NCBI RefSeq assembly: GCF_000003815.2
Contig: NC_049993.1
Coordinates: forward strand, 9,445,458-9,509,457
Direction: 5' to 3'
DNA: 64,000 nt
Source of the DNA: Branchiostoma floridae
Lineage: Eukaryota; Chordata; Leptocardii; Amphioxiformes; Branchiostomatidae
Part shown: positions 32,736 through 58,365 of the stretch, in pieces
Layout: every line of letters begins with the position of its first letter
Position numbering within the stretch: position 1 is the first letter of the stretch
Made by a program: the position numbers and the translations under genes
The notes under the pieces: model-generated
The model's input: only the letters and a program-made list of their open reading frames with translations
What the model was told of the DNA's origin: nothing
Database searches by the model: none

Positions 32736-35700
32736 CTACTGCAGGTCCTTAAAGTTTGCATAGAGAGTGAAACTGTCCAGGTACTCCAGTACTGCCTGGT
32801 AGATGAACTGGTACTGTTCCTATGGAGAGAAAAACAACAACCATTTACAAAATGTATACAACCCTTTCGTAATGATATTGCTGTGGCTATGATTTTTATA
32901 CATGCAATTGTAGCTTAAGATATGGTGTAGCTGAGGCCTAAACTGTATCATTTATTCATTCAGGGAAACCTACTGTGGAAAAGCATCCTCCACTTGTCAA
33001 TGTGTAACGTTTAAACTTTTATGTACTCATGTTAATCTTTGTCTTTCTTTTGAACTACAGTGGAGTCTTCAAAACCATTCTAAAATGACATATACAACAT
33101 TAAGAACATTGTTTCAACATCTACCTTTAAAGTCTCATTCTCATTACCCGTTTTCAGCTAGAGGTTGACACATGTCAGGAAATGATTGGAGGAGTCTGAA
33201 TAGAAATGATGGGTACTTTACCACTGTTTGCACCATGTGAGGTCTCTGATATCTCATGGACTTCACAGTTTGGAAAACATCACAGATGCCCTCTGCCTTC
33301 ACCCGCTCAATCACTGTGCTCAGGGTTATGAACGCCCCTGTGCGGCCTGCACCAGAACTGCAGGGAAGACATGTATCACATCATCAATATGACATGACAC
33401 ACATTTTCCATTCAACATTAGAATGATACTTTACAGCATATATTGTTTTGCTATGGTAAAATACTTGCCCCAATTGTTTCAAAATAGTAATAATTTTTTT
33501 AATAACTACAAGGGGTGGACACTGATTAGCCTGTCATGAAACAAATGTATGACATATCAATACATTTAGTAGTATCACCATAGGTACACCCTTTAAACAA
33601 TGCATAATGTATGTGGCAGGCCCATCACTGCATGAAATTTTACATTGTACAGTATATGTATATGCAGAACCTATAAATCATACATGTCAAAGAATAACAA
33701 GCTAGATCTGTGACTGGTACATGTTGCACAATGTACAAATGTAAGTCAATGAAATGAGACACTTACCTGAACTGTGATTGGTTAATAAGACTGATGACAC
33801 ATACCTGCAGTGCACCGTGATTGGTCCATTTCCGGACTGCTGTTGCTGCCTCTCCACCTGACCAATCAGGTCCAGCATGCCGGCAGCATTGGCAGGGATG
33901 CCGATCTCCGGCCAGCCGTGGAAGTGGAACTGCTGAATGGTACGACAGGACGCCTTCTGTTGGGAAAAGGTAGAAAGGAAAATATTAAGTTTCCTCAAGA
34001 TAAACCAATTGGCTTTGGTCATGAATTATCAGTACTAGCATACATCCCTCTGTCTCTGGACAGCATCTTGCTACTAATGATAAATAAAAGATTAATCTAT
34101 TCCCTCACCTTGATGGACAAAAATCAACTTAAGCTTTGAGAGACTGTTGATGTTCTGATGAAAACATTAAGATATCACAACATTTGGAATCTGCACCAGG
34201 TCCTAAAGATTTTCTAATGATCATGAAAGTCTTTCTAACAGTAGTATTGTAGCTACAATAAGACTTGTATGTACCTTTTCCAGCAGTCCTTCTGTCTCCC
34301 CTTCAGCATGCTTCTGGAACTTGTGGGTCTTAAAGAAAAAAACAAATACTTTACGAATGACAGGCTTTGGACAGGGAATTTTTAAAAATAAAACAACAAT
34401 CCTACTTAGTTACAGACACAATCTTGAATACTCTGGATAAGCACAAACATAACAAAGAATATTTCGAACGTTCCCTTGTACCTTCACTAAACACACACAC
34501 TCACTATCTGGTTTATTGTCTTACCTTTGTGTTGGTAATGTGGAAGGTTCGGACGGTGTAGTCTTGGAAGGTTTTGTCTCCCTTAGCCTCCACACAGATG
34601 TCTCCATACATCTCTACTTCACCTGGGCAGTACTTTTGGCGCTTTTCCTGTAACAACAGGGGGAAATATAACACAGATGTCTCCATACATCTCTACTTCA
34701 CCTGGCCAGTAGTTATGGCACTTTTCCTGTAACAACAGGGGAAATATAACACAGATGTCTCCATATATCTCTACTTCACCTGGCCAATACTTGTGGCACT
34801 TTTCCTGTAACAACAGGGGAAAATATAACACAGATGTCTCCATACATCTCTACTTCACCTGGCCAATACTTATGGCACTTTTCCTGTAACAACATGGGGA
34901 GATATAACACAGATGTCTCTATACATCTCTACTTCACCTGGCCAATACTTGTGGCACTTTTCCTGTAACAACAGGGGAAAATATAACACACATGTCTCCA
35001 TACATCTCTACTTCACCTGGCCAATACTTGTGGCACTTTTCCTGTAACAACAGGGGGAAATATAACACACATGTCTCCATACATCTCTACTTCACCTGGC
35101 CAATACTTGTGGCACTTTTCCTGTAACAACAGGGGAAAATATAACACACATGTCTCCATACATCTCTACTTCACCTGGCCAATACTTGTGGCACTTTTCC
35201 TGTAACAACAGGGGGAAATATAACACAGATGTCTCCATATATCTCTACTTCACTTGGCCAATACTTGTGGCACTTTTCCTGTAACACCATGGAGGAATAA
35301 CAGAGGATATATGTTTTAAAATAAAAGATGTTTGTCAGAGAAGGCTGCATACCGAACTGAATTGCCATGTATGTAAGCTTCCTTGAAATATGAGACACTT
35401 AGTCAAAAACGTTGTATTTCATTCAAATGAACTTTAATTTACTCCTGGCTATACGGCATGAAAAAAGGCAATAAAAGCTTATAAGTAAACTATTAAAAGT
35501 CTTATGAATGTAATTCAACATAAAAACAATGGACAACAGAATTCTAACCCACACAATTTATGCATGTACATGTATACAATATTTATTTCATCACAGTACC
35601 ATAATGACGATCACTAAAGCCTTTGCATACATGTAAACGGACACTTTCAGAGAACTAAAAGTTGAAAAGGAGGTTATTTCTGTACTTACATGACCCCTCT

Positions 35701-38700
35701 CCTCCAGCTCTGTCAGCATGATGATAGAGCAGGACTTCCATTCCCAAACCATCTTCCAGAAGTCAGTCACTGTGTTGGGTAGGGGGCCTTGGGTGGCGAT
35801 ATAGGCATCCTTCTCTCTGTACCCCTGCAACAAGAGGCCAAACCAAGATTAAAGATTACGCTGTAAAGCAGCGGTCAAACCATTGAGTTGGGTTGTCCTG
35901 GAAACCTGACAGATTCGATGATCAATAATTTCATACGGATCTTCTTTCTTAAACTTCGGAGGTTTCTTCTATCTCCACTTTCAGTGTGGTTAGAAATATC
36001 AAGAGAAATAGCTTCAGGATTCAAGACTTGATGCGTATACCGGTATGGACAATTTCACAACACAGAGTGGACTTTCATTGTAAGATAGCTCCCATCCACA
36101 TACAAAATGCCCTTACATGACATTGTACTTCTGGTCATATTAAGAATGATACATGTAACATTTACTTACATCGACAAAGGCTGCATTGATGTAGTCTGAG
36201 TTCTTCATACCCACTGTGGGGGTGATGTACACTCTGGATGTGTCATCTGAAAGGGAAAAAAATTAACATTCCTAAGGGTCTTTCTGACAATATAAAGTAA
36301 TTCTATTGGATTTTAATCATACATCGTAATGAAGGCTAAGAATAGAGAGCGCATATTGGGAAAGTAAAACTCATGTGATATGTCATTTTTCTCAAGGCCT
36401 GCACATGTACATGTATCAGCAAACAGCATTTGGGACACTTTTCTCTGACTTAACCCCACTTGCAGTAGTTCATCAAATGAACTGCACTGAATAATGCCAT
36501 CCAGAGGTGTTTGATAATGTGCAAGAAAGTATACAAGAGAATGGAACACTCCAAAAATGACTGACATGTACAAAACTTACATGGCAGGATCTGCAGAACC
36601 CTGTTTTTCTTGATGTTGTCTGGAAGGTTGCCAGATCTCATGTTGTGTTTCTCTATGGGGATTTGGGTCAGTTTCTGGAACAAACAAACACTCAGAGATT
36701 ATACAATGAAAAAAATATACAGGTCTGAAGCAATAAACTTTAAACAACAAAATTACAAAAAATGTACATACATGAATGTAAGCATCATGCAGACAGAAGT
36801 TACATTTATCACCCTGATTTGGTTAATATCCTTGAATTCCACTTTTGCAGTTCTTTCAACAAGTTTTGTTTCAAAAGGCCAGAGTTTATCAAAAAAAGTC
36901 TTGAAAGAAAACTTGTATAGTCACCTATGCAGATCTTACACAAGATAACAGGTACTCAAGCAACTGCATAGATTTTGAAAACAGTCAAACATTTCAGGCA
37001 CATGTAGCATCCAAACATCTGTCCATGTCCAAAATCCACATCAAGGTTGTCTCCAGGATCCATCCATCCGTCCTGGGATGGAAATTTGCTTGTTGGGACG
37101 AACAAAAATTCACACCATCTGTCCCCAACATCTGAACTTCAGTACATAACATTGATGAAATTGTGTTTTCATATGCTTAAAATGACAGATTTAACAAGGA
37201 AAATTAACAACAGAGGCTCCCAAACAATGAGAGAGAGATGAAGGTTAGACATCCAAGTAATCAGATATGCCAGAATCATATCCAGTTGCTTAAATAATTG
37301 CTATTTGGCGTGTAATGAGAGGGACCAAAAAAAAAATCAAAGCTGGAGACAGCCCTGGTCAAAATCTCTCATTTGCCTTACCTTGAACTCTGCCTCCATG
37401 CCCGTGTCCTGTGAGTTCGGCAGCCTGGCTGCCAGTTGCTGTAGATGTCTGCGGAGGTTCGTCACCTCGATCTCTGTATCACCGTACAGGAAATGTTCCA
37501 GTAGAGCTTGGTAGATAAACACATACTGGCCCTGGAACATAAAAACAAGGAACAACAGGGTCACATAAGGGACATGTGTGAGACACCTCGATCTCTGTAT
37601 CACCGTACAGGAAATGTTCCAGCAGTGCTTGGTAGATAAACACATACTGGCCCTGGAACATACCAAACAACACAACAGGGTCACATAAGGGACATGTGTG
37701 AGACACCTCGATCTCTGTATCACCGTACAGGAAATGTTCCAGTAGAGCTTGGTAGATAAACACATACTGGCCCTGGAACATAAAAACAAGGAACAACAGG
37801 GTCACATGAGGGACATGTGTGAGACACCTCGATCTCTGTATCATCGTACAGGAAATGTTCCAGTAGAGCTTGGTAGATAAACACATACTGGCCCTGGAAC
37901 ATAGCAAACAGCACAACAGGGTCACATAAGGGACATGTGTGAGACACCTCGATCTCTGTATCACCGTACAGGAAATGTTCCAGCAGTGCTTGGTAGATAA
38001 ACACATACTGGCCCTGGAACATACCAAACAACACAACAGGGTCACATAAGGGACATGTGTGAGACACCTCGATCTCTGTATCACCGTACAGGAAATGTTC
38101 CAGTAGAGCTTGGTAGATAAACACATACTGGCCCTGGAACATAAAAACAAGGAACAACAGGGTCACATGAGGGACATGTGTGAGACACCTCGATCTCTGT
38201 ATCACCGTACAGGAAATGTTCCAGTAGAGCTTGGTAGATAAACACATACTGGCCCTGGAACATAGCAAACAGCACAACAATGTCACATGATGTCATTTAC
38301 ATATCAAGACTGTACAAAACTGTACAAAATCTTACAGCTATTGTTCAGGTCTTACACTGCTTAATCACTCAATCTTCTCCAGAAAAAAAATCTTACAGTG
38401 TGATGACTTTCCAGTAGAGAGTTTACAACTGTGTATAAAGAGTCAGAGATGAACAATGATGGTAGAAACTTACCTCCGTCTGGACCATCATGCACCTGCT
38501 CTGTCGGATCTGTCCGACAAACCCAAACACGTCCACCCGCTGTTCCGCCGCGATCATATCAAACATGGCGTCAATCACGATGAACGTTCCTGTCCGTCCC
38601 ACACCCGCACTGCAGTGATGTTAAACATGCAATCAGTTTGGCGATACATGACTGTACTTGTTCAACTTCAATTGGATTATCCTACTATTAACTCTATGTA

Positions 38701-39333
38701 GGATTCAGTACATAATACAATATTATCATATAGCCAGGCGCCGCGGACCAATCAGAAGGCCCCGTTCCACGTTGGTTATGACGCCGTAACACGTAGATTC
38801 AGGCCAGGCAGGTGGGTATTGCTCCCCTGATTGGTCAGAATGAATCGACACCGGCACCGGTGTCGATTTGCATCGACACCGGCACCAGTCAGCAGAAAGG
38901 AATGCTTTGTACAGTGTGCAGTCCATGTTAGAGTTAATCCAAACATTATTACTGTTCACATTCCTTCAAATTTATTGAATATGTACAACTATAACTTAGG
39001 ATTGAATAGCAACACACTTGTCCCAGCAGAAGGGAATTTGTCATTATGTCATAAACCACCTCGTTCGCTACGCTCACTCGGTGGTTTATTCGGTGGTTAT
39101 CGCACCTGACCAGGGATTATCTCACCATATACACCTCGGGCCGGGGCATTAACCCTTTATTATATATCAGCCATACTGTGTATAAAAGACACAATGGGAC
39201 AATAATAAAGCAAAAAGCTTCGTCTCAGGACCAAAAGATTATATTGGCATAGTCCTGTGCATACACACGCTACCCAAAACATAACCTTCTCGGCGAAGGT
39301 AAGAATATTTGAAAAGACACACAATGACACACA

Positions 39334-39364
<31 letters not shown>

Positions 39365-42300
39365 CTGCAGTGCACCACTATAGGTCCTGAGTCGGCAGGG
39401 TTGGCTGCCTTCACCCTCCTCACAAACTTCATCATTCCCAGCGGACTCTTGGGCACCCCGAAGTCTGGCCAGGTGGTGAAGTGGAAGTGGAGAAGGGTAC
39501 GGGACTCCTCACCCTGCAAGCAGTACAAAAGAGTTATTAGTATTGTAACAGACTGTTGGAATCGACTAAACATCAACTCTCATAATGCTAACAGCTTCCA
39601 TAAAATTGCCACATGAAAAACTTTCTTATAGTTATAGAGGCCTTCCAAAGGTTGTCTATAACACCTAAATATTCGAGGTGTATAATTAGAAACTGTACTA
39701 ACCGATGCTGCATTGGTACATCTTTTTAAATGACTTTAAATTCATGTAGTTTTTGTCATGTGATGGTATTATGGCATTATGAGCGTCGATGTTACAACTG
39801 TCTATCAAAACTAGTAGCAGCTTGGCACACAGTTGTGCTTAAATTTCTACCAAGGGGTTGTTAAAGGTGGGCTGGGCCATTGGAATGTCTTAGTGACTTT
39901 CCACAAGATGGTATTAGCTGAGCAACTGTACAGCAAGTCAGTAACCAAATATTGAGTCGTTTAACCCTTCTTTTCATAATTGAAATAGGATGCAAGGTTT
40001 AAACGTTTGATTTCAAGGGCAACAAAACACATAAAACGTTAAAGAATCTGTGAAATTTGTTGCGTAATCTCTCAAATCTTTGCTCGCCAACCACTGGAGG
40101 AAAGGGAGTGTTTGGCAGAATTATGGATGTCTAGACTAATAAGAAGAATCTAAATGCCAATGCACAGTCATAGGAGACACTTAAATGTACATTTTTGTAT
40201 TAATGATAAGAGAGTTGTTTTTTTTATTCTCCTGTCAATTTGACAGATGAGGAGGCAGACAGGCATTTGCTTGTTTGCCTGACCTGCACATGACTTTTTA
40301 TGGTGAAGGAGGGGTGTGCAAGTCCTTTTCCACCCTCTCGTCTATTGGAGCACTAAGTCTCACAGGGGCAACTGTATGCAACGTGTGAGGTGGCTCCAGC
40401 AGATGCAGCTTTGTTGTTCGGAGTATCCGTCTCCTAGGAGGACTTCCGAACAAGGATGTAAGGGGTTCCTCCTACCCCCGACTCGTGTCATGGCGGGTGC
40501 ATCATGCCCGAACATGCCCATAAGGCCTGTCTCTGCCACAAAGGCCTGCCACTGCCACTAATAATTAGAGAGTACTGAATAATATTACTACAAGGTACTG
40601 AAGCATGGACATTGGACTGCTTTCCTTCTACAATGTGTCATAAAACTATGACAGCAGACAGAAAAGTGTGGAGAACAATGGTGGCCCGCCTCAGCGAAGA
40701 CTGATATGCCATGAGGATGAGTGAGTGAGTGAGTGAGAAAACTATGACAAAGAACCTACATGTACCTTCCAAAGAGTAAGAGTCCTGATGACGTAATCCA
40801 CTAGTGTGGAAGTCTCCTCACTCCGTACTGTGATGTCACCGTACTGCTGGGACCCTGTGTCTGGCCAGTACTGGCTGCACTTCACCTGAGAACAGATAGG
40901 GGGAGATACCTCATCAGTATCTGCATATTATATCAATAAAGAAAACAAGGACGTACAATGTTTACTACACAGCCTTACATCAATTTTTTTTTCAAATCTT
41001 AAATCTGTTAACAGAGTATGAAATACAGGAAGTCTGTTTTGAAGTTCATCACTTGGATGTCAGATCAGATATCTTATTAGTTATATCCCTTGCCAGAGGT
41101 AGATGCAAAAAAAGGCTACGGTCAGTCATGTAACCGAACATACTACTGGAAATACAGAAATGTTCGCTGTGGTTTTATGTTCACGGTTGTCGTGGTGACC
41201 ACTTCACCGCAAAATTGAAACCACCGCGCATATTTTTCCATTATATTATGAGACTGAAGTCAATGGCGCTACTACAAACTTAAATCCACTACGAACACTG
41301 CATTTTCCCACTTCCGCAACAGTTAATCCCCGCGAACTTGAATGCATTTACAGTACTTTTTTTCCTAAGCCGCAGTACATTTTGTTTTGATGAGAAGAAA
41401 ATTCATCAGGTACTATCCCCACCTTGTTCTTCTCCTTGACATTGGTTACCATGACGATAGTTGCAGTGTTCTGCTCCCAAACCATCCTCCAGAAGTCACT
41501 CAGAGTTTCCTCCTTGGGTCCTGGGGAAACAAACATGGCTTTACACGTAGACTTCAATGTTTTTTAACTTTTAAGTGATAAAAATCTGGTTCATTTGGCG
41601 AGACTATTATATTCCTAGCAACTGTCCTTTGGTCCTCATCCTGTATCTTTAGCACAGGAGCCATGTCCTGAAAAAAAAACGATTTTGTTGCACCTATTTT
41701 ACAGAAAGGGTTTGATCTAATTTTTGTGGTAGAGGAGCCTTTGCTCCATCACCTAGCATGATTTTTATGCTTAAATTGTGTTACACATGTATATCACTTT
41801 TTTGCGAAACATAAAGTTAGAATACTTATAATATAATTCTGCACAGGTGGAAAAATGCAGTTTTAACATTTCTAAGCCTCTTTTGGGACTTGGCACTGCT
41901 TTATTTTGTACAATCAATGAGGTTAAAATTAACCTCCTTGGTATAATTTTACAGACCACTGAAATTTTCCATCACATTCTATTCTGCCCACCTTGCGCTG
42001 CGATGAACTTCTTGCTGTGCTTGTAGCCATCCACGTAGTTAGCGTTGATGTAGTCAGAACATGCCACTCCAGGGATGGAGGTCAGATGCACACGGGAGTG
42101 GTCATCTGAGACATGGAAACAAAAGAACTGACGGTCAAGCACCAATTTGAGAGTAATCGGTTCCTAGCTTCACAACCAAAGTAGTGAAAGCTACAGCTGT
42201 AGTTAGATTAAAGAAAATGTCCAAAATCATTTTTCAAACTGAGTTAGATATTTTTTAGTACTTTTACATGCATAGAATAAAAATAACATAATGATTGTTT

Positions 42301-45300
42301 TTATATTCCTCTTATTGCAATCCTTAACCTAACATGTACACTATAGATCATTCTCATGATTGTTTAAGGTAGCAGGTAGCTCTTGTTGCTATGTTGTTGT
42401 TTTTTTGCTAGCTTTTGCTAAATACTTTTTTATTCAGTGAAGAAGTGAGTTTTGCTGCTCCTTACAATGATGATGTTGGGTAAGGATTTGGGTTAGGGTA
42501 AGAGTTAAGGTTAGCTCTAGTCATGCTACAATTGGCCAAGATTTTTAGGTGGCAGGTAGTTTTGTCATACTATAAAGAAGTGAGCCTTACACATGATGAT
42601 GTTGGGTAAGGGTTAGGGTAAGAGTTAGGGTTTGCTCTAGTCGTGCTATACCATGATTTTTATGTGGCAGAGAGATTTTCTTATCTGTATACTGTAAAGA
42701 AGTGGGTTTCGTGCTCCTTACACATGATGATGTTGGGTAAGGGTTAGGGTAAGAGTTAGGGTTTGCTCTAGTTGTGCTATACCATGATTTTTATGTGGCA
42801 GACAAATTTTCTTATATGTATACTGAAAAGAAGTGGGTTTTGCTGCTCCTTACACATGATGATGTTGGGTAAGGGTTAGGGTAAGAGTTCATCATCATCA
42901 TGAAGAGTTAGGGTTTGCTCTAGTCGTGCTATACCATGATTTTTATGTGGCAGAGAGATTTATACTGTAAAGAAGTGGGTTTCGTGCTCCTTACACATGA
43001 TGATGTTGACGAATCTGTTCTTCTTGCTGTTCTCTGGTAGGAGGAAGGCCTCGTATGAGGCGGAGGGTTCCTGTGGCAGGGCGTCGTACTCCTCACGGAA
43101 CAGCTGGTCATCGTTGGCATGGCGACGGTTGAACTCCTTCTCCAGTCTCTCCATGGGGATGGGAGGGTAGTACGCTGGGGGGAGGGGGGCATGTCAGGGT
43201 GGCTCAACAATCAGAAAATATCACCAGTAATATACAAAAAGTGATAGCAATGTACAAAGAATTCTTTTGACATGAAATGCATACCCTACAATATTATAAC
43301 TTTTACTGTACAGTTTGCTAAGATCACAAAGACAACAGAAAATGACTATTATAGAGATAAAAATTGCCTTTCATCCAGAAAGAATAGCATTACTTTTGAC
43401 ATATATTTGACCTTCCCTTTTCCTCCCTTTTGACTCTATTTTCATGTTGATACTTCAGTTTAGGATTGTTCATCAAAATCTCAGAATCAATAAATTAGCT
43501 TCTTACACAAGAGACACACGGAGATGCAGTTTGGCCTACCGGGGAAAAGTTTAATGCTTTGTTCACTTTTCCGGATACACAGGCAGAAACGAGATCAACA
43601 ACAGAGTAGATAATAAGAAAAACACAGTTACACTCAGATATATAGAAAGTGCGATGTGGAGCACATAAACGACTCTGGTTACATCATTTGATTTGAGAAT
43701 AAGTGTAAGAAGCTAAAACTACGCAAAAATATAAGAAATGTGGCTAAAACTAATGATTAACCTACAAATCTAACTTAATTATCAAAATGGTGGTGAGGAG
43801 GGTGGTGGTGGGTTGAGAGAACGACAGAGCGGACTACCGAAGAGTGCTGCCCGCGGTCTCGTCCTGAGCGGGAATGAGCGTGGGGGACGCCAGGCCTGTA
43901 CCATGTGCTCGCCTGGCACCCCGGGGAGGGACGGAGCTTGTAGCCAGGCCAATTAACAAAAATGACCCGTAGACATTTTTCCACAATTAGATTGCTGTGG
44001 GCTAAGGGAAAATCATAATGTGTTGCAAGAACTTGCCCGACTGTTTCTAGCGTGTCGCCTGACAGTTGAAGCCTTCAAAGATGCCCACGTTCGGGTCCTA
44101 TCACGCATTTTATAGCGTTTGGACCCCACTTCGAGGCTGGAACCACTGGGAGTGTTTTCAAATTACAGTAACGATCAAAAAACTTACGACTAGTGCACAT
44201 GCGCCACGAGGAATCGTGGGTAACTGGTGACCTTTGAAAATGGAGGCTACTTGGGGGTGGTCAGATCAGTAGTCTGACTGACAACCCAGAGGGTGCAGGA
44301 GGCAATCATATTGGGTTTCTAGTAGTTCCTTACCAGCACCCCTATGGAGAGGCATCTCCTCGTCCCTCCCACCGCTCTTCCTGAAGGAGTTTCTGAGGCC
44401 ACTCCGCTTCTTGGACCTCCTGACATGAGGCAGGCCGTTGCCTGCTGCCTTGTTGTTCAGCCTCCTCCTACAACAGAGATGGTGAAGAAACATTATCATC
44501 TGCATCAATATGCTTTAGATTTGCCAAAAAGCAGTTACTCAAGCAACTGGATATGATTTTGGAAGAATATAGGCCCATCCAAGTGTAAGGGGGAGATCAA
44601 GCCTTACTCAGTTACTGTCCAGTCTTATGCTTTTTGTTCCAAAATCATATCCATATTTTTTGAGTAACTGCTTTTTGGCATATCTTATTACCTGGATGTC
44701 TACCGTCAATGCTTCAGATTGTCTTTTGTTCATTTTGCATAAACAGTCACCTTATGTTGTAACACACCAGTTTTAGAATGTCAGAACAAGAAGCATAAGA
44801 CTGGACTGAAATGTTTAATCTTCTCACACTTGGATGGGCCTCTACTCTATTTGGGAAGCGTGCTTTTATACCTGCTTCAGGCACCTCCTGCGTTACATTT
44901 TCTTTCCAATTTCTACAAATAGGCATATAATTTGGTGTGCTGAACATTGACAGGTAGGTACTTATTTTCATCCATCCATCCATCTAAATCTCACCTGATG
45001 AGGATGATGAGGACAGTGAGGATGATGAGGACCACCACAGCCGAGCAGAGGATGATGAGGATCAGCATCCAGTTGGTACCAGGCAAAGGGGCGGTCATGA
45101 TGGGCAGGGAGTAACTACTACTGCTGTACAGGGGCTGGGGAAGAAGGGGAAAATTGTTAATTGTGTAGTGTCTTTGACATCAATCAGAGGCAAGGGAAAC
45201 ATCATCATAGACTGCTGTTGTAAATGTAATCCTACGTAAACATAATCTGGTACTTGACAACAGGAGGAAAAAGCCTAAAGTATGCAGAGGTTGTGAGTTA

Positions 45301-48300: not shown

Positions 48301-51300
48301 GGTGTTTCCCAATGTAGCACACATGCCATATGACTGGTGGAGAGATGCACTCCTCTAGGAGCACTGGGTACTGGTGAACACAAGCAACAAAAATGTCAGG
48401 TGATTGAGATGCAATGGTACAAAATGATTCTTTGATTTGTAGAATTTCATAACATCTTCTATGAGATACTTATCATTCAAGCATTAGCATGGCTGATTGC
48501 TAGCCATATTAACACTATTGAAAGGAAAGATTTAGCTAGAAAGCAAAAACATGCATGTAACAGAATTGAAGTAAATGAAGATATTGTCAAAATCACTTTT
48601 TAGAAGTTCCCTTCTTGCACAATTTGGCTGATGCAATGGCCTAGGGGTGTTCCTTTTGCATGCAAAGGATGCAGGTTTAGGCTAAAGAATAAAAATAGTC
48701 GCTACAGAAGTGGAGATGGGCACTGCTCTACACACCAAAGGCTTGGGAAGGATTTTAATGAATCAACAAACATTTAACATATTCTATACTTACGTCCATC
48801 ACTGGTTGTGCTGTTGGCTCTACTTTCAAATCCCCTACACGGACCAAGGTTATATGGAACCACCTTAAAAACAAGCAAATGATGTGTTATGTATAACTAT
48901 AAGATACAAATTTGTACTTAAATTCATGATGCTAGTATAAGCAATGTGTTACACCAAAAGGTTACCTTTATACCAGCTATGTAGATACAGATGTGACCAA
49001 AATTAATTCAGCATGATTTACCCTCTGCATACTAGGGCTGGGTATCGGTACAGCGTACGGGTACAAAACCGTTTTTTCTTATTGGACAAGTCCAGAAAAA
49101 CCGGACCTGAAAAAATTGGGTGGACCGGATGTTGGACCGATTAGAAAATAAACAGATTATTTTATCAGCCATTCACGCATTTTGGCGCTTGCAGGTGGAA
49201 GAAAATAACAAGAGTGAAGTAGAGTAGAGTTTATAGTAATTTCTACCAAGTTTTACAGCCAATCGTACAGGAGGTGCAGTTAGCGCTGTACGATTTTAAA
49301 ATGCCAGTGTAAGTCTAATACTCCACCAGGCAGATTTCTTTGTAGTGAAATGTACCATTGGTATGAGTCATACTGAATCAGGTCCAGGTTCAGGTCCGGA
49401 CCTGGACCTGATCCTTTGGACCTGAACCGGACCTGGACCGGAATTTTCTGTACCGGTAACCACCCCTAGTGCATACCTGTAGATGCACACAAATTTGTAC
49501 TGGCTGCAACAGAAGCTGGATAAGGTTAAAAGAACACATCATATGATCATCACATGATGTTCACATGATCATCACATGATCTTAACATGTCTTGCTCATG
49601 ACATTGAGGTTCTTTTGAATTATCTTTGTTAGAGTTGATGCAATACTTACTCTGACAGTGTATTTTGTTGCTGGAACCAAACCCTGGTATCTCACTTGCA
49701 GGGTGTCACCAGAACCCAGACTGTTATCAGCCACCTTTATATAACCTCTAAATAGTTCCACTTCGTACTTGTACAACTCTCCATTCAGTGCTTCTGGCTC
49801 CACCCAGGTGGCAACAAGGATGGTTGAAGAGATGTTGGTAAGTTGCAGAGACCTGACTGGTGTAGGATCTGTAATAGATACATTATGATAAATGTCAGTG
49901 AAACATTGAACTGATAATGTACATGTTATTACAAAATAAAGAGATCCTAACTAGCAGTTTTTTTAAACTATTTCACATCATGTATTGTTTTACTTCAATT
50001 TGGCTCTTTAGTGAATTGGTTGCTTGACAATATGCATACATTATAGGCAACAGTAACAGGGGTGGACCCACTGGACAGAGCCGCATGGAAGCGCAGTGTA
50101 CTGCCTACCCGTGTCAGGGATCCAAGCAGCAGTATAATCAAATAATGAATACTACTAACTCTCAATAAACAAAAACAAATTTGCATGAAAAATGGATGAC
50201 AGACAGACAACAAACTCACATCCAGAATTTGTCCGTTTGGTGACCCATGGATGCCAGGCACCCACACCGTTGGTGACCAGAGCTCTCACTGAGACCTCAT
50301 ACGATGTGTAGGACTGCAGATCTTGCACCACATACGTGGTCCCAGTTGTGGCATTACTGATGACTTGTGGCAAGTCTCCTGTACCAGCGAGTCTGTAGCT
50401 GATGTCGTAGCCTGTAACTTCAGCTTGGTGTTGGGCAGGTGGATTCCAGCGCAGGGTCAACCGTCCTTTCCCACAGGAACCACTGGCAGTGAAAGCCTCG
50501 AGGTCACCTGGTACCAACATGGCTGGATCTGGAAGGAATTAGAAAACATCATGAAGTTTAACACTCTTTTATTTTGGTTAACACATTTTAAATCCATAGA
50601 CAGCATGATAAACATGTAGCTAAGACAATTACTTCAATCTACCATAATAAAACAGGTAATACAAGGGTAGTCAATTTACAATTATTATATCATAGAGCCA
50701 AAAGGTATCAACCAATCAGAAGGCACCATTACCCAGATCACTTATATGGCTACACACTCATTCCAAGGTTTCCATTGGTCCAATTTTTTTTGTCACCAAT
50801 AATGGGTTATACATTACCTATGTCACAGTGGGCACCGATGTTCCCATCACTACAGGTACACATGTAACCGTTCTGTCTGTCCACACAGGTTCCTCCTGTG
50901 CAGGGGTTCGACTGGCACTCATCTACATCTGTGAGGAGAGGACAACATGTTTTCTGAGATATCCTAACCTTTATCCTGTGTTATTTGTATTACCTTATGA
51001 CATTAGGCAGCAAGGGGATTATGGTAGCCTAATTAAGGTCCCAAATGCAATACTTGCATTCCTCCTCATCACAGTTCATGACCTGAGTTCATTTCCTGAT
51101 CCACATGGCTTGCTTTATCCAACAAGTGTATCTGTTGTCCTCTCTGTCTTCCACATTGACCCTGTTCTATTACACAGTTATTTCTTGCAACATGGTTTGT
51201 CACTGCTGATTTCTTTTAGTTTGTTTGTTTAGCTTGTTTCACATACAACTGTATATGTGACCAGTAAACTGCCTTAACACACCAATTTTGTACAGTAAGA

Positions 51301-54300
51301 ACATGCTGCATAGGACTGAGCCATAAGGTTTAATTCACTCTCTCCGGTTGGACCCCTACTTTTCCTTCTCAGCTACTTCTTTTGCACTGTCATGTACCTT
51401 CCCACCTTGATTCTCTCATTGATAAGTAATTACAATTATAAGAACTTGACACTGACCTTGATCACAGTTAGCTCCAGTCCATCCAGGTGTGCAGTTACAG
51501 GTGTAGGTAGCGCTGCCTGCAGGTGGGGTGTTCACACATGCAGCTCCGTTCTTACACGGCTGACTCAGACACTCGTCAACATCTAGAGCAAAGAGTGGGG
51601 AAATACCAGTAAGACTTCTTCCATTCATGGATAATTTCATCAGGTTGGTAGATGGCTGTGTGCCAAAAATCTGGGTTGGCTAAACAGTTCTTCTTGTTAA
51701 ACCTACTATACTCTCCTGACAAGGTTGCCCAGACCACCTATATTCAAATCATGAAATACTCTCATGTCCCTAATAAACATACCTTCCGGAATAAACATAC
51801 CCCCCGGACAAATCTTCAAAATCTAATAAACATACCCCACGGAATAAACATACCCCCCGGAAAATGACCAAATTGACATGTAGACTGTGTCCATGCTACT
51901 TCTGTTCAAGGGAAAGCAGATAATAAGCAGGTAGGTTATTTTTATTTACTTATACCTGATCACCAAATCAAAATATAGCTGTATGAATAATGAATATTGA
52001 ATAACTATAGATATATCTTGTTCAAATTATAATATTTTCTCCATTTTCTAATGAAAGGTATACAGACTCCTAACCGGGGGCCAACAGTGCTTTCAAATTC
52101 AACAAGTGAAAATTTACATGATAACGTTACATGAATTTTCTACTCAGAACTTGAAGCAAGTAAATATAGTTATAATAATAATAATAAATATTTTGTACAT
52201 TACTTAAAATTACTGGCATATCAATAAAATCATTATAAATATAGCTCCAAGTACTCAACCATATGTTTTAGACATTACCACCAATTAAAACACACATCAA
52301 CACTCCCAAAATGGACACAAACTGTTCACAAAGTTTTTGTGAGAGCTCGTCTGTGAAGTAGCCCAACATTCAGGCCACAAATAGTAAATATGTTACAGAT
52401 TATATTTTGACACTAGAAACCGCTAAAATTAGAAAATTTTATGATTATTTCTGAAATTCAACACTCTGAAAATATATATGACATTTTGTGCCCATCATTA
52501 CACCGAAATAAAATCATTTTCACCCGTTTACGGCCTCATTTTAGTGATTCGAATCTGCCTCCCAACAGGGTGCTAGCTTTACTGTCAGTGCGTGTTATTC
52601 CTGGCAGCCATGTTGGATCAGTTTCGGTCTTTTTCTTCAAGTTTAAAGCTGTTTTTAGCGACGGATTTCTGCTGTTTTTGGACAATTTGCGGCCCCAAAA
52701 CTCACATTACAAGGGAAAGAAGGTTCTAATTGTTGTTTCTTATGTGAAGGAATTATTCGTCCGCCCCGTTGTCGCTGCCGATAGCGCATGGAACCACATG
52801 GTCGGAAATATACTGTACATGCTAAAATTATGTGATCAGTGTGTTCATTTACGATGTAAATAGAGACTGTAAAAGTTGTTTATATAAAAAAATTGCGCTT
52901 CAAAACGTCAGTGTGGCGGCTTATTTTCCCAATAATAACATTTAGTTTGTACATTCATAGCGAAATCGACCGATATTTTACATAATCGCTAGGATGTTTG
53001 GGTCACAGTGGAGGGGAAATCCGAGCAGCTTCGGCCGAAAATAGTGAATTTTGAGCAAAAATACTGCGGACATATGGACAGAAAACCCCAAACTTTTTAT
53101 TATGCGGTTGTCCCTGGTTAGCAAAGCCCCAATTTTCAAAAAAATAATAAACGTACCGTCCCAAATAAGAACGTACCGGGTGGAATTTTCCTGGGAAAAA
53201 AATAAACGTCCCGGTACGTTTATTAGGGACATGAGAGTAATTTCATCAGGTTTGTACTATGTATATAAATTGTAGATCATCCAGGCTGTATATCAAAAGT
53301 CTCCTGAATAGTCACACTGGCTCTGTTAAACAGTTCTTCTTTTTAACCTACCCTCCTGACAGAACTGCCCTGTCCACCTATATTCAAATCAGGAATAATT
53401 TCATCAGGTTTGTAGATCATCCAGGCTGTGTATCAAAAGTCTCTTGAATGATCACACTGGGTCTGTTAAGGTCATACTGGGTCTGTTAAACAGCTCTTCT
53501 TGTTAAACCTACCCTCCTGACAGGACTGCCCTTTCCACCCAGCCTCACACCCTCCAAACAGACATCTCCCATCTTCAAGGCTACATTCATCGGGTAAGTA
53601 ACAGTGGCAGGTCCCGGTACAGTCAGGGCCAAACTTCCCCTCATCACAAACTAAAAGGGAAATACGACAAAAAAGGAAACAACAAAAATGACATTTGAAA
53701 AAAGCATGAAAAGGGAAATATCTTCAGATTTCTATTTTCTCCCCATACACTGCATTCCTTTGGTTCAAAATCTTGCTGTCAGTTTCTGCACACATAATCT
53801 CTTTGTATAATGCTAAAATGTTGGGAAGAAAAATATATAGGATACAATTAAAACATGCATAAAAGAACTTGCATACTATGAAAAATACCCTACATCAGCT
53901 TGCAGAATGTATAATATTTTACACAAGTTTTGTTTGCTTGGTTGACAATTTAGTTATCTATTGCAACTTATAATGCTTCCATGTCAGAAAGAGATGTTGC
54001 TTAGCTGCATTCAACTAACCCTAAACCTGAACTATCTAACATTTAGAGGTACCGTATACCTGTTTGACACTGTCCACCTTGGTACCCAGGAGTACAATGA
54101 GGTCCAGTGCCATAAGGACAGAACCCAAAAGTCTTGGAGCAGACACCGCCGTTAGCACAATGTCCGCAGTTCTGTTTACAGTCTTCACCATAGTAACCAT
54201 CACCACATGCTATATGTAGTACAGGTTACAGAGCACAAGGGAAGGGAAGAGAAGCAGGTAAGGTTTATTATGGGAAGGGTCTAATCAAAGGGATAATTAC

Positions 54301-57300
54301 AAAGCAATATTGAAAAGTAAGCAATGGAAGGTATTACTGTAATGGAGATAAAGGTATTGGGGAGGGCTTGATCATGCAGGGAAAGTAAAACTAAAAAAAG
54401 GAAAGTTTTACTTCACACAGTACCATCAACCTCATTTTTCCTGTGACTTCTAACTTCTAAGCAGTGCTGTGTAGTAGAAGCCCTGGAAGGATGTGGATAA
54501 AAGGAAAAGAAGGAAAGGAAAGAGAGAGATAAGAAAAAAAGGAAATGAATGAATAAGTATATGAGATGATGGATGAGAAAGCCATTAGATGAAAGATAGT
54601 AGAGTGAGAGAGAAAAATAAAGAGCACCATATTTGTAGAAATAATGCAACTCCATTTGTAACTGACCTAAAGAAGAAACCCAATCTATTACACTACTTTT
54701 CAATTCCAGACAGCACTTGAAAGAGTTACCTGTTTGACATAGTATACCCGTATACCCAGGGGCACAGCGGGGAGTGTTGTAGGGACAGTACCCAGAAATC
54801 TTGTTACAGACAGCACTGTTAGCACAGTGTCCACACTGTTGTCTGCAGCCATCACCATAATAACCATCACCACATGCTAGTACAGGTTACACAGCACAAC
54901 AGAAGGGGAACAGAAATAGGTAAGATTAATGAAGATTAAAGAATAGAAATTTAAAAAAAGAACACTTTCAAAATGCAAGATATTATTGGAAGGCACTTAG
55001 TAGAAGGTATCATCTTAATAAAGAGACGGCATAGACTCAGATCTAATTGAAGTGTTTGATCATACATGGAAAGTAAAACTGAAAAAAGTAAAAGAATTTA
55101 GATTTTGTTTCCCGCAGTGCCCACACTTTCATTTTCCTGAAAGATCTCTAGTGGGCAGTCAGAAGAGAGATATGAATGAATGCATGAATAAATGAATGGG
55201 TATGATGGTAGACAAATGAATGAATGACTAAATAAATGAAAGAGAAGGCAGAGGAAAATGAAAAGGGCCATACATTGTACTTGACAAAATACTGCAGCTC
55301 TTTTGCATCACATTAAGAGATTCAGTTCCATAAAAACATAACCCATCCCACGCACTACTTTTCACAGTAAAAAATCACTCCTGTACATAACACTATAAAC
55401 TGTTACCTCTTTGACATCGTATACCCATATACCCTGGGGCACAGCGGGGGCTGGAGTCAGGACAGTACCCATTGGTTTTGTCACAGAAATCACCGTTAGC
55501 ACACTGTCCACACTCTCTGCAGCTCGCACCATAGAAACCATCACCACATGCCTCTACAGTTTAACATGAAAAGAAGCAGTTAAACAAAATAAAACACCGA
55601 AATGATAGAAATCAGAGATAAGTACCTTAAGAAAAACATAACTTAAAGAATTCTTTGACCCAAAGAAACTGATAGAAAAGCACCTGTTAGATTGGTGAAG
55701 GACACAGAAAGACGTTTAAGTCTTGGTCTTCTTGCACATGCACTAATGAGGACACACATGTATACCTACACCAATCAAATGAAGTACATAATCATCTATG
55801 CAATTACCAATAGGCAGGGCTGGCTTGATCATCATGGTGCTCTTCTGGAGTGAGTAGTTTGATCCTCTCCATGAAGCCCAGATCAGTCCTTGTTTCTCAC
55901 ATGCTACGGGGTTGCTTGGATCCTCTTTGCAGTCGGTTAGATAGTAACCATTTAACGTGCCCTGGCCACATGACGTAGGATACCACCAACCGCCCCTTCC
56001 GTTGTAGTTTGCACAGCTAACAGTTGCATTGTCATTGTCCTGATCCTTTGTTGAGAACTTCATCCCATTGGAAGTAGTGAAACTGTCCCCAGTAGTCCCA
56101 GCATAGCCTCCTATCTGTAGAGTGTACTTACTGGTGGCATCACCGACCGCAAACTGGGAGTACTCTGCATGTGCAACTGTGTTTGTCCAGTCTTCTAATA
56201 TGACCACAAGTTTATACGCTTTCTGTGAAGTGAGTTGGTGGATCCTGTCCAGACCCAGCCAAAAGTCTTCAGTATATACAGAGCCAAATCCATTCACATA
56301 CTCGTACCATGTTTTGTCAAAAGCTGGGGTACCGCTTTGTCTCTTCTGTATAACAGTCCAGCCACCACCTCCATAGGTCATATCACAAAGAGCATTGAAG
56401 GCAGGGGTACCAATAGGGAAGACACCATCCTCTCTTTGGCCATTATCATATAGATCAGCACAGTCCTGGGCTAAGACCTGTCCGCCTGAAAGAAGAAAAG
56501 AAAACAAGATTAAAATATTTGTGACAGAAATCAAAGTCACTTCAATAAGAAACATATTTCAATTTTATATCTATATCCAATTTTTAACTACAAAATGTAT
56601 GGATGGATGGCATAAAAGAAAACATGTTAGAAAATAATGGAGTGGATCAATTCAATTCAATTCAGTTCAGTATCGTAGTACGAGGTGGGATAAAGAATGC
56701 CACTTCAGACTTCTCGGTCCAGCATCATTTGAAGTGGATCATTTGCTCAAAAAAGGAGATGAAATGGATAAAAGAAACCACAGATCTTTTGAAACAGTGA
56801 TAGGACATTTTCTACAAAAGGTCTGTTTTAAAGCTGATTACATATACAGTTGTATGTAAAACCCAGGGTATCATAAGTCAAGCTCTGAGCAGGGATACAC
56901 ATCAAAGCTTCCTATACTGAAATACAAATACAAATCCCAAACAGTCACGCTGCCCAAACCACAAGAATATAATATATCACTGCTTCTTTGACCTCCTCTT
57001 TGACAAACAATCAGAGCTTTCCCTATACATATCACATTTCCCCCTGCTCTTCCTGTTGTAACTTCCTTCCCTGTCAATACTATTATGTTTCCACTGTGCA
57101 TCATAGCTTATCTCCTATAACAGCAGCGGGGAATAGGGCAACACCAACTGGATTCTATAGTTCTTACCACTTTGAAAAGGCTGAAAAATTTCAGTTTATA
57201 GAGTAACGGAGGTACTGATCCAGCAATAAATTTTAGTAAAAAGAAAAAAAAACTACCATTCATGGAAGATGTGCTACATTATATATTCTTGTTTGTTTCC

Positions 57301-58365
57301 TTCTTTTGTAAGTAGTCAATAAACCATACAACCAAAAACCATAAGGCTGGATTCCAATTTTGTGTACAGTAAGTTCAAGCTCTGTTTACGTCTGGGGTGA
57401 TACCGGAGAGTTTCAAAGTCATGGCTTTTTGAATGTGCTTGAGAGGTATATTTTTTCTCAAACATCCAGATCTTGCTGTAACATAATGCGCTGTCTGAAG
57501 GACCCCTATCAATTCAGTAGCATGAAAGTTAGTCAGGAGCAAATTCCGACCTCGTAACTCAAAAGCATGATTACCACAAATTGAACCACAGCACGCTACA
57601 TATTGTATGTCATTGTATTTGTGATGGATGTTTGGAAATGATACGGCTAATTAGCAGCACCCAATCACTTGTTTCCGCCTCATTTCACTCTGAAATGCCA
57701 TCAAGAACATGTTCTAAATCCAGTCAAAAGGCTGTGTTTTGACATGAAGTATGGGAATATAACATCTAGATGTGCTAAATAGTACATGTATGCTAGAGTC
57801 TATCTATGCAGATGCATTGACAAAGTCAAGAGTAATCTAATAAATACCCACAACATGTTTTCCATATCAATAATGCAAAAGCTCAGTTGATGAGCTTCAT
57901 TAATTTTTCATACATATCTAATGTTAGACTATACACTTCTATAACATGAAAATTATGATCGTCATAGTTCACATATCATATGATAGCGTTGACTAATAGA
58001 CTTCCTCCATCATCTAAATAGTGGGGAGGGGGGCATATAGAGCCAGCTATTCTCTGAGTTCTACGTATACTTCGTATTATTACTTCGGGTAAAATGCATG
58101 GGACGTCAACCTAGGAAACAGAATGGTTCGGTTCACGCTACAAAATGTTTAAGAAATCGGGAAGTAGGTGAGTTTTTTTTCGTGCTGTAAACATTTGACG
58201 AAACGCAGACTGGCTGTCAAGAAACCAAAACATTTCTTAGCCACGCCTTTCACTTTCGTAGACAAAATCGGTCATTTCTGAGACAATCGTGGAGAAACTT
58301 GAAGACTTACCGGTCAAGAAGATGCCGAGGATGGCTAGAACCGTCGCTCCCGGCCAGGGAGCCAT
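32736..58365 (-). CDS. Receptor tyrosine phosphatase with N-terminal fibrinogen-related domain
   Basis: 33 minus-strand exons sum to 5007 bp, an exact 1668 codons plus stop. Order: signal peptide ([19 protein letters not shown], 58311-58365); fibrinogen-related domain in one exon (55808-56485); EGF-like exons 55407-55553, 54730-54876, 54060-54209, 53513-53650, 51457-51582, 50818-50928; FN3 50220-50528, 49651-49868+48794-48863, 48267-48370+47368-47590; membrane-proximal exons 46434-46542, 45859-46002, 45358-45559 with RRKR at residues 935-938; membrane segment about 1000-1023 (44995-45134); juxtamembrane 44334-44467. D1: 42995-43174, 41992-42105, 41423-41520, 40766-40885, 39365-39513, 38474-38609, 37382-37531, with [18 protein letters not shown] (Asp1257) and [10 protein letters not shown] (Cys1288). 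D2: 36581-36674, 36170-36246, 35690-35824, 34525-34647, 34275-34328, 33805-33956, 33222-33357, 32736-32819, with WPE and [10 protein letters not shown] (Cys1595). It should dephosphorylate phosphotyrosine at the plasma membrane; the ligand is unknown. Confidence 0.9.
34569..35296 (-). repeat. Minisatellite of 78-79 bp made from an exon's 5' edge and its 3' splice site
   Basis: Nine units, counting the real exon 34525-34647, repeat at 78-79 bp. Each contains the acceptor (CCCCTGTTGTTACAG) and the first 54 or so exon bases, beginning GAAAAGTGCCACAAGTATTG, then returns to pyrimidine tract and acceptor. Start points of the unit (CTTTTCCTG on plus) are near 34642, 34721, 34799, 34878, 34957, 35036, 35115, 35194 and 35273. 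Each unit also contains CCAGGTGAAG, a possible weak donor. The array lies inside the D2 region. Confidence 0.9.
36945..37015 (+). repeat. Dispersed repeat copy (CTCAAGCAACTGGATATG family)
   Basis: It contains GGTACTCAAGCAACTGCATA, TTTTGAAAACAGTCAAACAT and GTAGCATCCAAACATC in the order seen at 21643 and 22456. A further partial, rearranged copy lies at 37243-37300. Confidence 0.65.
37460..38290 (-). repeat. Minisatellite of 120-121 bp made from the D1 terminal exon's 5' edge
   Basis: Seven units, counting the real exon 37382-37531. Each carries an acceptor (ATGTTCCAG) followed by 66 exon bases encoding [20 protein letters not shown] plus two residues, then GTGTCTCACACATG. The marker CCTGGAACAT starts at 37531, 37652, 37772, 37893, 38013, 38133 and 38254. 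Long apparent reading frames on the minus strand across this region are a by-product of the near-multiple-of-three period. Confidence 0.9.
38838..38888. repeat. Nested palindrome and direct repeat of TCGACACCGGCACC
   Basis: TCGACACCGG-CA-CCGGTGTCGA is a 22-bp palindrome (about 38848-38869), and its left half is repeated directly 20 bp on. It lies in a receptor-phosphatase intron. Nearby at 39057-39100 is a GGTGGTTTATTCGGTGGTTA-type short repeat. Confidence 0.6.
39325..39366 (-). repeat. (CA)n microsatellite that supplies a splice donor
   Basis: The exon ending in the catalytic TGC AG (39365-39513) is followed on the minus strand directly by GTGTGTGTG repeated for about 35 bases, so the donor GT is the first unit of a microsatellite. 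Length change here would not remove a GT but could shift donor strength or position. Confidence 0.85.
40268..40401 (+). repeat. Dispersed repeat, copy 1
   Basis: This shares about 130 bp with 48008-48141, including TGCACATGACTTTTTA, GGTGAAGGAGG, CCACCCTCTCGTCTA and CACTAAGTCTCACAGG. No coding capacity was seen. It lies in an intron. Confidence 0.8.
42455..43010 (-). repeat. Minisatellite of about 130 bp made from an exon's 3' edge and its 5' splice site
   Basis: The real exon 42995-43174 ends AACATCATCATGT followed by GTAAGG. The block CATCATCATGTGTAAGGAGC with its flanking intron recurs four more times, with ACATGATGAT on the plus strand near 42464, 42591, 42722, 42854 and the real site at 42994. 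Units also hold TTAGGGTAAGAGTTAGGGTT, which looks telomere-like but is only part of this repeat. Confidence 0.85.
44521..44705. mobile_element. MITE-like inverted pair of the CTCAAGCAACTGGATATG family
   Basis: The left arm starts TGCCAAAAAGCAGTTACTCA and runs to GGATATGATTTTGG. The right arm (44636-44683) is its inverted copy, from CCAAAATCATATCC to GAGTAACTGCTTTTTGGCA. It is followed by TATTACCTGGATGTCTACC, also a family block. It sits in the intron upstream of the juxtamembrane exon. Confidence 0.65.
46628..46790 (+). mobile_element. tRNA-derived SINE-like sequence
   Basis: GTGTAGTTCAGTGGTAAGC (A-box like) is followed 25-30 bp on by GTGTTTGATTCCG (B-box like), then by non-tRNA sequence. 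This is the layout of a tRNA-headed SINE. It lies in a receptor-phosphatase intron. Confidence 0.5.
48008..48141 (+). repeat. Dispersed repeat, copy 2
   Basis: This is the second copy of the repeat at 40268-40401, in another intron of the same gene and in the same orientation. Confidence 0.8.
48628..48690 (+). mobile_element. Short tRNA-like or SINE-like fragment
   Basis: AATGGCCTAGGGGTGTTCC (A-box like) and GATGCAGGTTTAGGC (degenerate B-box like) lie with tRNA-like spacing. It is too decayed to be a functional tRNA gene. Confidence 0.35.
49032..49469. mobile_element. 438-bp non-autonomous element with CTAGGG-type TIRs
   Basis: The ends are inverted and match 17 of 20 bases (CTAGGGCTGGGTATCGGTAC and CTAGGGGTGGTTACCGGTAC). 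It is flanked by TGCATA on both sides (49026-49031 and 49470-49475). The interior is rich in GGTCC/GGACC blocks and has no coding capacity. The TIR style recalls hAT elements, but the visible duplication is 6 bp rather than 8, so the family is uncertain. Confidence 0.75.
51650..53530 (-). repeat. Tandem copies of an EGF exon's 3' edge, split by a transposon
   Basis: The real exon 53513-53650 ends CCTGTCAGGAGG followed by GTAGGTTTAAC. Copies of this edge plus about 100 bp of intron occur near 53320-53420 (TTCTGTCAGGAGGGTAGGTT) and 51650-51757 (eroded: CCTTGTCAGGAGAGTATAG). The two copies are separated by the element at 51759-53237. Shared intron blocks include GAAGAACTGTTTAACAGA and GATGAAATTATTCC. 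Confidence 0.75.
51759..53237. mobile_element. 1.48-kb TA-flanked transposon with 20-bp perfect TIRs
   Basis: Both ends read CTCTCATGTCCCTAATAAAC in inverted orientation and are bordered by TA (51757-51758 and 53238-53239), as in Tc1/mariner-type insertions. Subterminal AATAAACRTACC motifs are repeated at both ends. The adjacent tandem copy near 53385-53410 preserves the empty site (TCAGGAATAATTTCATCAGG). The interior has one 140-codon reading frame (52441-52863) that I do not recognise as a transposase, so the element is probably non-autonomous. Confidence 0.85.
53513..55553 (-). repeat. Run of tandemly duplicated EGF-like exons
   Basis: Exons 55407-55553, 54730-54876 and 54060-54209 (147, 147 and 150 bp) share GDG-YYG, C-CANG and APGY-type motifs. 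They also share intron sequence outside the acceptors, for example GTAACCTGTACTAG and GTACTACATATAG. They are spaced 670-677 bp apart, indicating segmental duplication of exon plus intron. A fourth, more diverged exon at 53513-53650 ([17 protein letters not shown]) resembles the Tie-receptor or laminin EGF type. Confidence 0.8.
55808..56485 (-). other. Fibrinogen-related domain exon of the receptor phosphatase
   Basis: One 678-bp phase 1-1 exon encodes a full C-terminal fibrinogen-like (FReD) domain, about residues 19-244. Landmarks are [47 protein letters not shown], a calcium-loop-like [25 protein letters not shown] and ending WASWRG. The FReD family includes ficolins, angiopoietins, tenascins and FIBCD1 and binds sugars, acetyl groups or proteins. 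The splice phases join it cleanly to both the signal peptide and the first EGF exon, which argues against an artefactual fusion. Confidence 0.9.

Follow-up and report, generated by a model that had tools for sequence, protein, structure and literature searches.

The minus strand of the window, meaning the whole stretch of 64,000 nucleotides that was analyzed (C15:9445458-9509457), probably carries a single gene for a receptor with two PTP domains of the PTPRA/PTPRE type and an ectodomain made from a fibrinogen-related domain (FReD), six EGF-like modules, three FN3 domains and a membrane-proximal unit. This reading of the sequence includes a predicted cleavage of the ectodomain, a type of ligand and a signaling output. 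Sequence comparison identifies the protein as a receptor PTP with a PTPRA-like enzyme and a new head, which supports the original prediction of a receptor PTP headed unusually by a FReD.

Exon structure and domain order

The gene runs from 58365 to 32736 on the minus strand and has 32 exons and 1652 codons, with one terminal stop and no internal stop (Table 1). The model is based on stop-to-stop frames, comparison with related loci and hand-chosen splice sites, whose scores come from rough, home-made matrices. Its order is signal peptide, FReD, six EGF-like modules, three FN3 domains, a membrane-proximal FN3-like unit, a transmembrane segment (TM) and two PTP domains. The junction phases are compatible at every exon boundary, and every exon from the FReD through the first FN3 is of phase 1-1, as is usual for extracellular modules spread by exon shuffling. 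Exon 1, 55 bp long and of phase 1, has the same form as the first exon of a kinase receptor gene on the same contig (locus D, below).

Table 1. Exons and domains of the FReD-headed receptor phosphatase gene (window positions).
Feature	Span	Strand	Exons	Basis or remark
Exon 1, start codon and signal peptide	58311..58365	-		phase 1 out, donor 6.9
Exon 2, whole FReD	55808..56485	-		Pfam PF00147 1.1e-60; PDB matches FIBCD1, ANGPT2
Exons 3-6, EGF-like 1-4	53513..55553	-	55553-55407, 54876-54730, 54209-54060, 53650-53513	all phase 1-1; cysteine pattern by eye
Exons 7-8, EGF-like 5-6	50818..51582	-	51582-51457, 50928-50818	phase 1-1; PF00008
Exons 9-13, three FN3	47368..50528	-	50528-50220; 49868-49651 + 48863-48794; 48370-48267 + 47590-47368	PF00041, 3 stretches
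Exons 14-16, membrane-proximal FN3-like unit, furin-like RRKR	45358..46542	-	46542-46434, 46002-45859, 45559-45358	fold by eye
Exon 17, transmembrane segment	44995..45134	-		sequence
Exon 18, juxtamembrane segment	44334..44467	-		
Exons 19-25, PTP D1, WPDFGVP	37382..43174	-		Pfam PF00102
Exons 26-32, PTP D2, WPEIGIP, C-terminal YANFKDLQ and stop	32736..36674	-		Pfam PF00102

Besides the FReD, Pfam recognized EGF (PF00008, 6.5e-11, two stretches, the best one in EGF5), FN3 (PF00041, 1.8e-31) and Y_phosphatase (PF00102, 2.9e-166, two stretches) in the predicted protein. The other four EGF-like modules were assigned by eye from their cysteine pattern; the membrane-proximal unit, recognized as FN3-like in the same way, is unnamed by Pfam. 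The FReD-EGF-FN3-TM-PTP-PTP architecture first proposed for the minus strand is thus borne out by an independent hand model and by Pfam. The first reading counted 33 exons and 1668 codons for the same architecture.

An automatic model of the gene, with 40 exons and 1857 amino acids, was set aside. It crossed intronic minisatellites, missed most of EGF1-3 and lacked the small exon 48863-48794, which is required to complete the second FN3. Two minisatellites of the window, at 34592-35286 (79 bp x 8.8) and 37463-38288 (120 bp x 6.9), each contain repeated copies of an acceptor together with the beginning of a PTP exon (34647-34525 and 37531-37382). Minisatellites at exon-intron boundaries have reportedly been described in work on the amphioxus Adh locus.

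One gene or two

The model might have fused a gene for a secreted FReD (or FReD-EGF) protein with a separate gene for an EGF-FN3 RPTP that lies downstream on the same strand. Several observations point this way. The FReD donor scores 0.1, the stand-alone FReD frame continues for 21 codons beyond that donor before it meets a stop, and the neighboring RPTP on C15 (C-) has no FReD. Banyai and Patthy include in their account the caution that novel domain combinations in lancelets may often be gene-prediction errors (PMC4967905). However, the intron between the FReD and EGF1 is only 254 bp long, and none of the start exons detected by a scan of introns between the FReD and the second FN3 has a strong donor.

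The scan was for hydrophobic ATG exons of 36-150 bp with a donor score of at least 0. In the 7.5 kb upstream of the FReD (64000-56500), the sole such exon with a phase-1 donor is 58365-58311, the chosen exon 1. Three internal candidates were found between the FReD and the second FN3, with donors of 0.7, 0.8 and 1.4; candidates occur at 0.3-0.4 per kb across the window. One of the three, 55271-55127 (donor 0.8), between EGF1 and EGF2, is more hydrophobic than the chosen exon 1. Another, 52369-52279, is signal-peptide-like (donor 0.7) and lies inside the gap between EGF4 and EGF5, which at 1930 bp is the largest in the FReD-EGF-FN3 part, and a gene boundary could be located there. Low scores were also given to the acceptors of EGF1-3 (-0.6, -1.3 and -2.1) and to the first donor of the third FN3 (-2.1), and AATAAA motifs are spread throughout.

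The arrangement of a FReD before receptor exons recurs in the genome (513.43 Mb, 431 contigs searched), which also argues against two genes. At least 144 PTP matches were grouped by strand into 35 clusters, 15 of them on C15, and FReD positions were collected on the contigs bearing these clusters. Three of the 35 have a same-strand FReD no more than 40 kb upstream (at 11.3, 13.8 and 16.5 kb), where a uniform scatter would give about 0.24, an estimate that is rough because FReDs occur in clusters and both the PTP and the FReD counts are minimum values. The three are the window gene and the phosphatase genes A+ and B- of two other C15 loci. Two further clusters have a FReD at 60-61 kb, one of which is the window FReD seen from the next gene. 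The kinase genes A-, D and E- likewise have a FReD upstream of their receptor exons. At locus B, the entire block from the FReD to just before the TM is common to two genes that have homologous signal-peptide exons. The duplication of the corresponding exons at A and B, which are under purifying selection (dN/dS 0.35 and 0.23), also speaks in favor of one gene. The whole domains, the phase-compatible junctions and the rough cluster count indicate that the union of FReD and RPTP in the window exceeds chance. A split into two genes is quite unlikely.

Enzyme, head and proposed signaling

As a single gene, the window sequence would encode a receptor whose enzyme resembles those of the R4 class. 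Among the best 60 of 260 matches, D1-D2 scores highest with PTPRA (848 bits) and PTPRE (747), followed by PTPRS and LAR (624-635), CD45 (453) and PTPRG (407); D1 alone gives 423 bits with the D1 of PTPRA versus 308 with that of PTPRT, again among the best 60 of 260. The PTP pair is 63.8% identical to PTPRA (511 selected columns) and 59.4% to PTPRE (508). The C-terminus aligns with PTPRA YIDAFSDYANFK, with YANFK kept. D1 has the HCX5R active site and the WPD loop and is predicted to be an active phosphatase.

With an ectodomain, a TM and two PTP domains, the protein has the make-up of a receptor-type classical PTP. The PTP pair, closest to PTPRA/PTPRE among the matches listed, and the C-terminal tyrosine of YANF(K) place it with R4. 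Vertebrate R4 ectodomains, however, are short and are not known to carry adhesion domains, whereas that of the window gene comprises about 1000 residues with its FReD, EGF-like and FN3 modules. The FN3 repeats and the membrane-proximal FN3-like unit with its furin-type site are instead traits of the LAR-type (R2A) and PTPRK/M-type (R2B) classes. Yet PTPRS falls about 213 bits short of PTPRA as a match to the PTP pair (best 60 of 260), and neither FReD nor EGF is known in R2A or R2B; the R2B comparison is one with single-domain chains only, among the matches listed. In an unrooted tree of seven sequences, the window PTPs join PTPRA/PTPRE on one side, with the related phosphatases (C+,C-) and (A+,B-) on the other, but this is no test of class, because the outside sequences are all R4 and the window gene served as the query by which the pieces were selected.

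PTPRA is a well-studied activator of Src, and its short ectodomain gives little clue to its ligand. An R4-type relative with recognizable binding modules offers a way to ask what R4 phosphatases sense. Among the actions reported for PTPRA are the removal of phosphate from the inhibitory Y527 of Src and, through its own phosphorylated Y789, the recruitment of Grb2 and BCAR3 (PMC7959691). Because of the PTPRA-like pair, the YANFK tail and the action of PTPRA on Src, the main output of the window receptor would be the dephosphorylation and activation of Src-family kinases, and the phosphorylated YANFK tail might bind Grb2-type adaptors. The receptor is also predicted to be cut in the membrane-proximal unit and to stay together as two chains. 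Basic sites are found at the place matching its RRKR in six related genes of loci A, B, F and G: RRRKR in A+, A-, F and G, and RRRRQ in B- and B+.

The FReD is complete, like those of FIBCD1, the ficolins and the angiopoietins, and its PDB matches include FIBCD1 (best, 166 bits) and ANGPT2 (162 bits). In those lectins and ligands the FReD is C-terminal, whereas this one is N-terminal on a signaling receptor. No FReD head on a receptor phosphatase is named in the titles and abstract openings of the papers listed, which is weak evidence of absence.

It had been suggested that this FReD senses acetylated sugars, so that the receptor would perform pattern recognition of the ficolin/FIBCD1 kind and signal by dephosphorylation. 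The match to FIBCD1 is consistent with this, as are the retained aspartates 393 and 395 of the calcium-site region. The contacts described for the acetyl group in FIBCD1 include Cys414 N, His415 N and Tyr431 OH, with Tyr405 in some ligands (PMC10825690). In the alignment, positions 414, 415, 431 and 405 of the window FReD are C, G, E and N (H415G, Y431E, Y405N), so that the S1 residues of FIBCD1 and ficolin-1, Tyr405, His415 and Tyr431, are all replaced. Position 443, presumably also part of the acetyl pocket, is S instead of W, and the CG at 414-415 is as in ANGPT2. In an alignment of nine amphioxus FReDs that includes this one, position 415 is G throughout and Y is absent from position 431, although column 431 sits in a gapped stretch and is less sure.

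These changes weaken the acetyl-sugar reading, and a receptor for acetylated glycans is quite unlikely. Sugar binding may nevertheless occur, because His415 of FIBCD1 makes its contact through the backbone and ficolin-2, according to the same source, binds at other sites (PMC10825690). More likely, the FReD would bind a protein or a matrix component, in the manner of angiopoietin FReDs, without a FIBCD1-like acetyl pocket.

Related receptors with kinase, phosphatase and tyrosine tails

Several other loci on C15 carry related ectodomains. The automatic models of A, B, C-, D and E contain spurious exons and were used only for exons that homology, phase or Pfam supports, and the PAN and MAM labels at all loci were given by eye.

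Locus A (C15:10.278-10.328 Mb) holds a kinase and a phosphatase gene head to head. A- (10.278-10.290 Mb, minus) encodes Ig, EGF-like, FReD and FN3 modules, a TM, SAM and a tyrosine kinase with HRDLAARN and DFG. Pfam named FReD (3.4e-67), FN3 (1.9e-34), Ig (1.3e-07), kinase (1.6e-77) and SAM (4.4e-08) in it; EGF models stayed under their cut-offs and PAN was unnamed. A+ (10.302-10.328 Mb, plus) has matching ectodomain exons and two PTPs (Pfam 2.9e-166). DNA matches of 71-96% extend across the two ectodomains and end just before the TM. Over 16 matched exons (1203 codons), the twins are 83.3% identical in amino acids, with dS 0.293 and dN 0.103 (ratio 0.35); the comparison excludes the A- EGF exon 10285836-10285690, whose best match is an A+ exon already used. 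The twins are not colinear throughout: the A+ Ig exon 10317594-10317899 has no match in A-, and A+ has five close EGF copies versus one in A-.

A kinase gene (F, exons from 8461016) and an RPTP gene (G, exons from 8490105) stand in tandem at C15:8.452-8.496 Mb. Within 8452001-8461000 and 8480001-8490000, they have PAN-like, EGF and FN3 exons in common and no FReD. Their identity over 570 codons is about 81.5% (dN/dS 0.35). This value is approximate: it leaves out the PAN-like exon of F, for which the stop-free frame used gave no hit, and the frame taken for exon 8457476 was probably wrong. One Ig and one FN3 exon of G are unmatched in the F stretch.

At locus B (C15:14.753-14.797 Mb), the phosphatase has a twin with a different kind of tail. 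The minus-strand gene, B- (14.753-14.785 Mb), has the order FReD-FReD-EGF-Ig-FN3, followed by two PTPs. On the plus strand, B+ (14.786-14.797 Mb) carries an ectodomain that matches that of B-, then a TM and, in place of the phosphatase, a short, phase-consistent tail and a stop. The two genes lie head to head with 853 bp between their start codons, and the homologous signal-peptide exons are 70 bp long; identity is 83.9% over 1123 codons in 13 exons (dN/dS 0.23). The B+ tail (14796737 onward) contains five tyrosines, in NDNYDMV, SDSDYQAL, STEYTSL, DPVYVND and DPEYVEL, and its two splice sites score only 0.3 and 0.0. SDYQAL fits a common ITIM form. Results reported for the amphioxus ITIM receptor BbLcLRR include binding of SHIP1, and less so of SHP1/2, in human T cells (PMC8211107). 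No kinase or PTP tail for B+ was found up to 14820000; one reverse-strand kinase match (E 0.012) was set aside. Beyond the TM, B- and B+ also match at 71% in DNA (14767080-14767241 with 14799165-14799321), with no coding frame. At C15:14764127-14760389, inside an intron of the B- phosphatase gene, there is an open frame resembling a retrotransposon, along with a stretch of N.

Similar heads also occur on kinases elsewhere on the contig. Locus D (8.303-8.311 Mb) has FReD-FReD-EGF-Ig, a TM, SAM and a kinase, and its head is 77.8% identical to that of B- (581 codons, 4 exons). E- (1.918-1.932 Mb) has FReD-EGF and SAM-kinase exons, with an incomplete FReD match. The ectodomain exons of the C- phosphatase reach the left end of the window (about 629-4763, minus) and appear by eye to be PAN-like, MAM-like, EGF and FN3. 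There is no FReD in C-, since C15:9420001-9517457 contains a single FReD match, that of the window gene.

Synonymous divergence differs between exons of the twins (p 4.6e-07 at A, 1.2e-10 at B). The dS of the FReD exons is 0.53 at A and 0.59 at B, and that of the other exons is about 0.25. This suggests partial gene conversion of the stalks at both loci while the FReDs diverge, so the ligands of two twins may differ to some extent.

At A and F/G, the DNA itself shows that kinase and phosphatase receptors have ectodomain exons in common. A push-pull function for these twins may be inferred. A tentative reading, plausible but short of probable, is that C15 carries a push-pull family, in which FReD (or PAN/EGF-like) ectodomains were copied onto SAM-kinase, PTPRA-type phosphatase and short tyrosine-motif tails, with the same or similar ligands and opposite outputs. 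The window gene would belong to this set of recombined heads and tails as a diverged phosphatase member with no known twin, because no near copy of its FN3 region was found in the genome (other matches are 26-36% identical), its FReD shares no more than 50% identity with the other FReDs compared, and C15:9420001-9517457 gave neither a kinase nor a SAM match at E 1 or better.

Loci A, B and F/G resemble the vertebrate paired receptors, such as KIR, LILR and SIRP, in having neighboring genes with similar ectodomain exons and different tails. They differ in that at A and F/G the enzymes, a tyrosine kinase and a tyrosine phosphatase, form the tails. For the window gene, no twin was found with its FN3 region as query or within C15:9420001-9517457. 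If real, the family would be a paired-receptor system with the opposing enzymes built into the receptors, and twins that work as pairs would provide a simple genetic system for testing the opposing readout of similar ligands.

It could further be proposed that the window RPTP mainly antagonizes the FReD/SAM-kinase receptors of its chromosome, as the inhibitory partner of a paired system. The head-to-head twins at A and the tandem twins at F/G, together with the heads common to the phosphatase B- and the kinase D, are in line with this. However, the FN3 query of the genome and the search around the gene for kinase and SAM gave no twin, and the YANFK C-terminus favors Src activation. The antagonist role is doubtful, and activation of Src-family kinases is the preferred output.

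The kinase query from locus D matched an EGFR entry first (274 bits, two stretches), followed by FGFR1-3 and TIE2 (230-234 bits), among the best 60 of 2455 matches. Genome-wide, many uninterrupted frames of at least about 900 residues on several contigs match this query at about 33-43% identity and are apparently intronless kinase genes.
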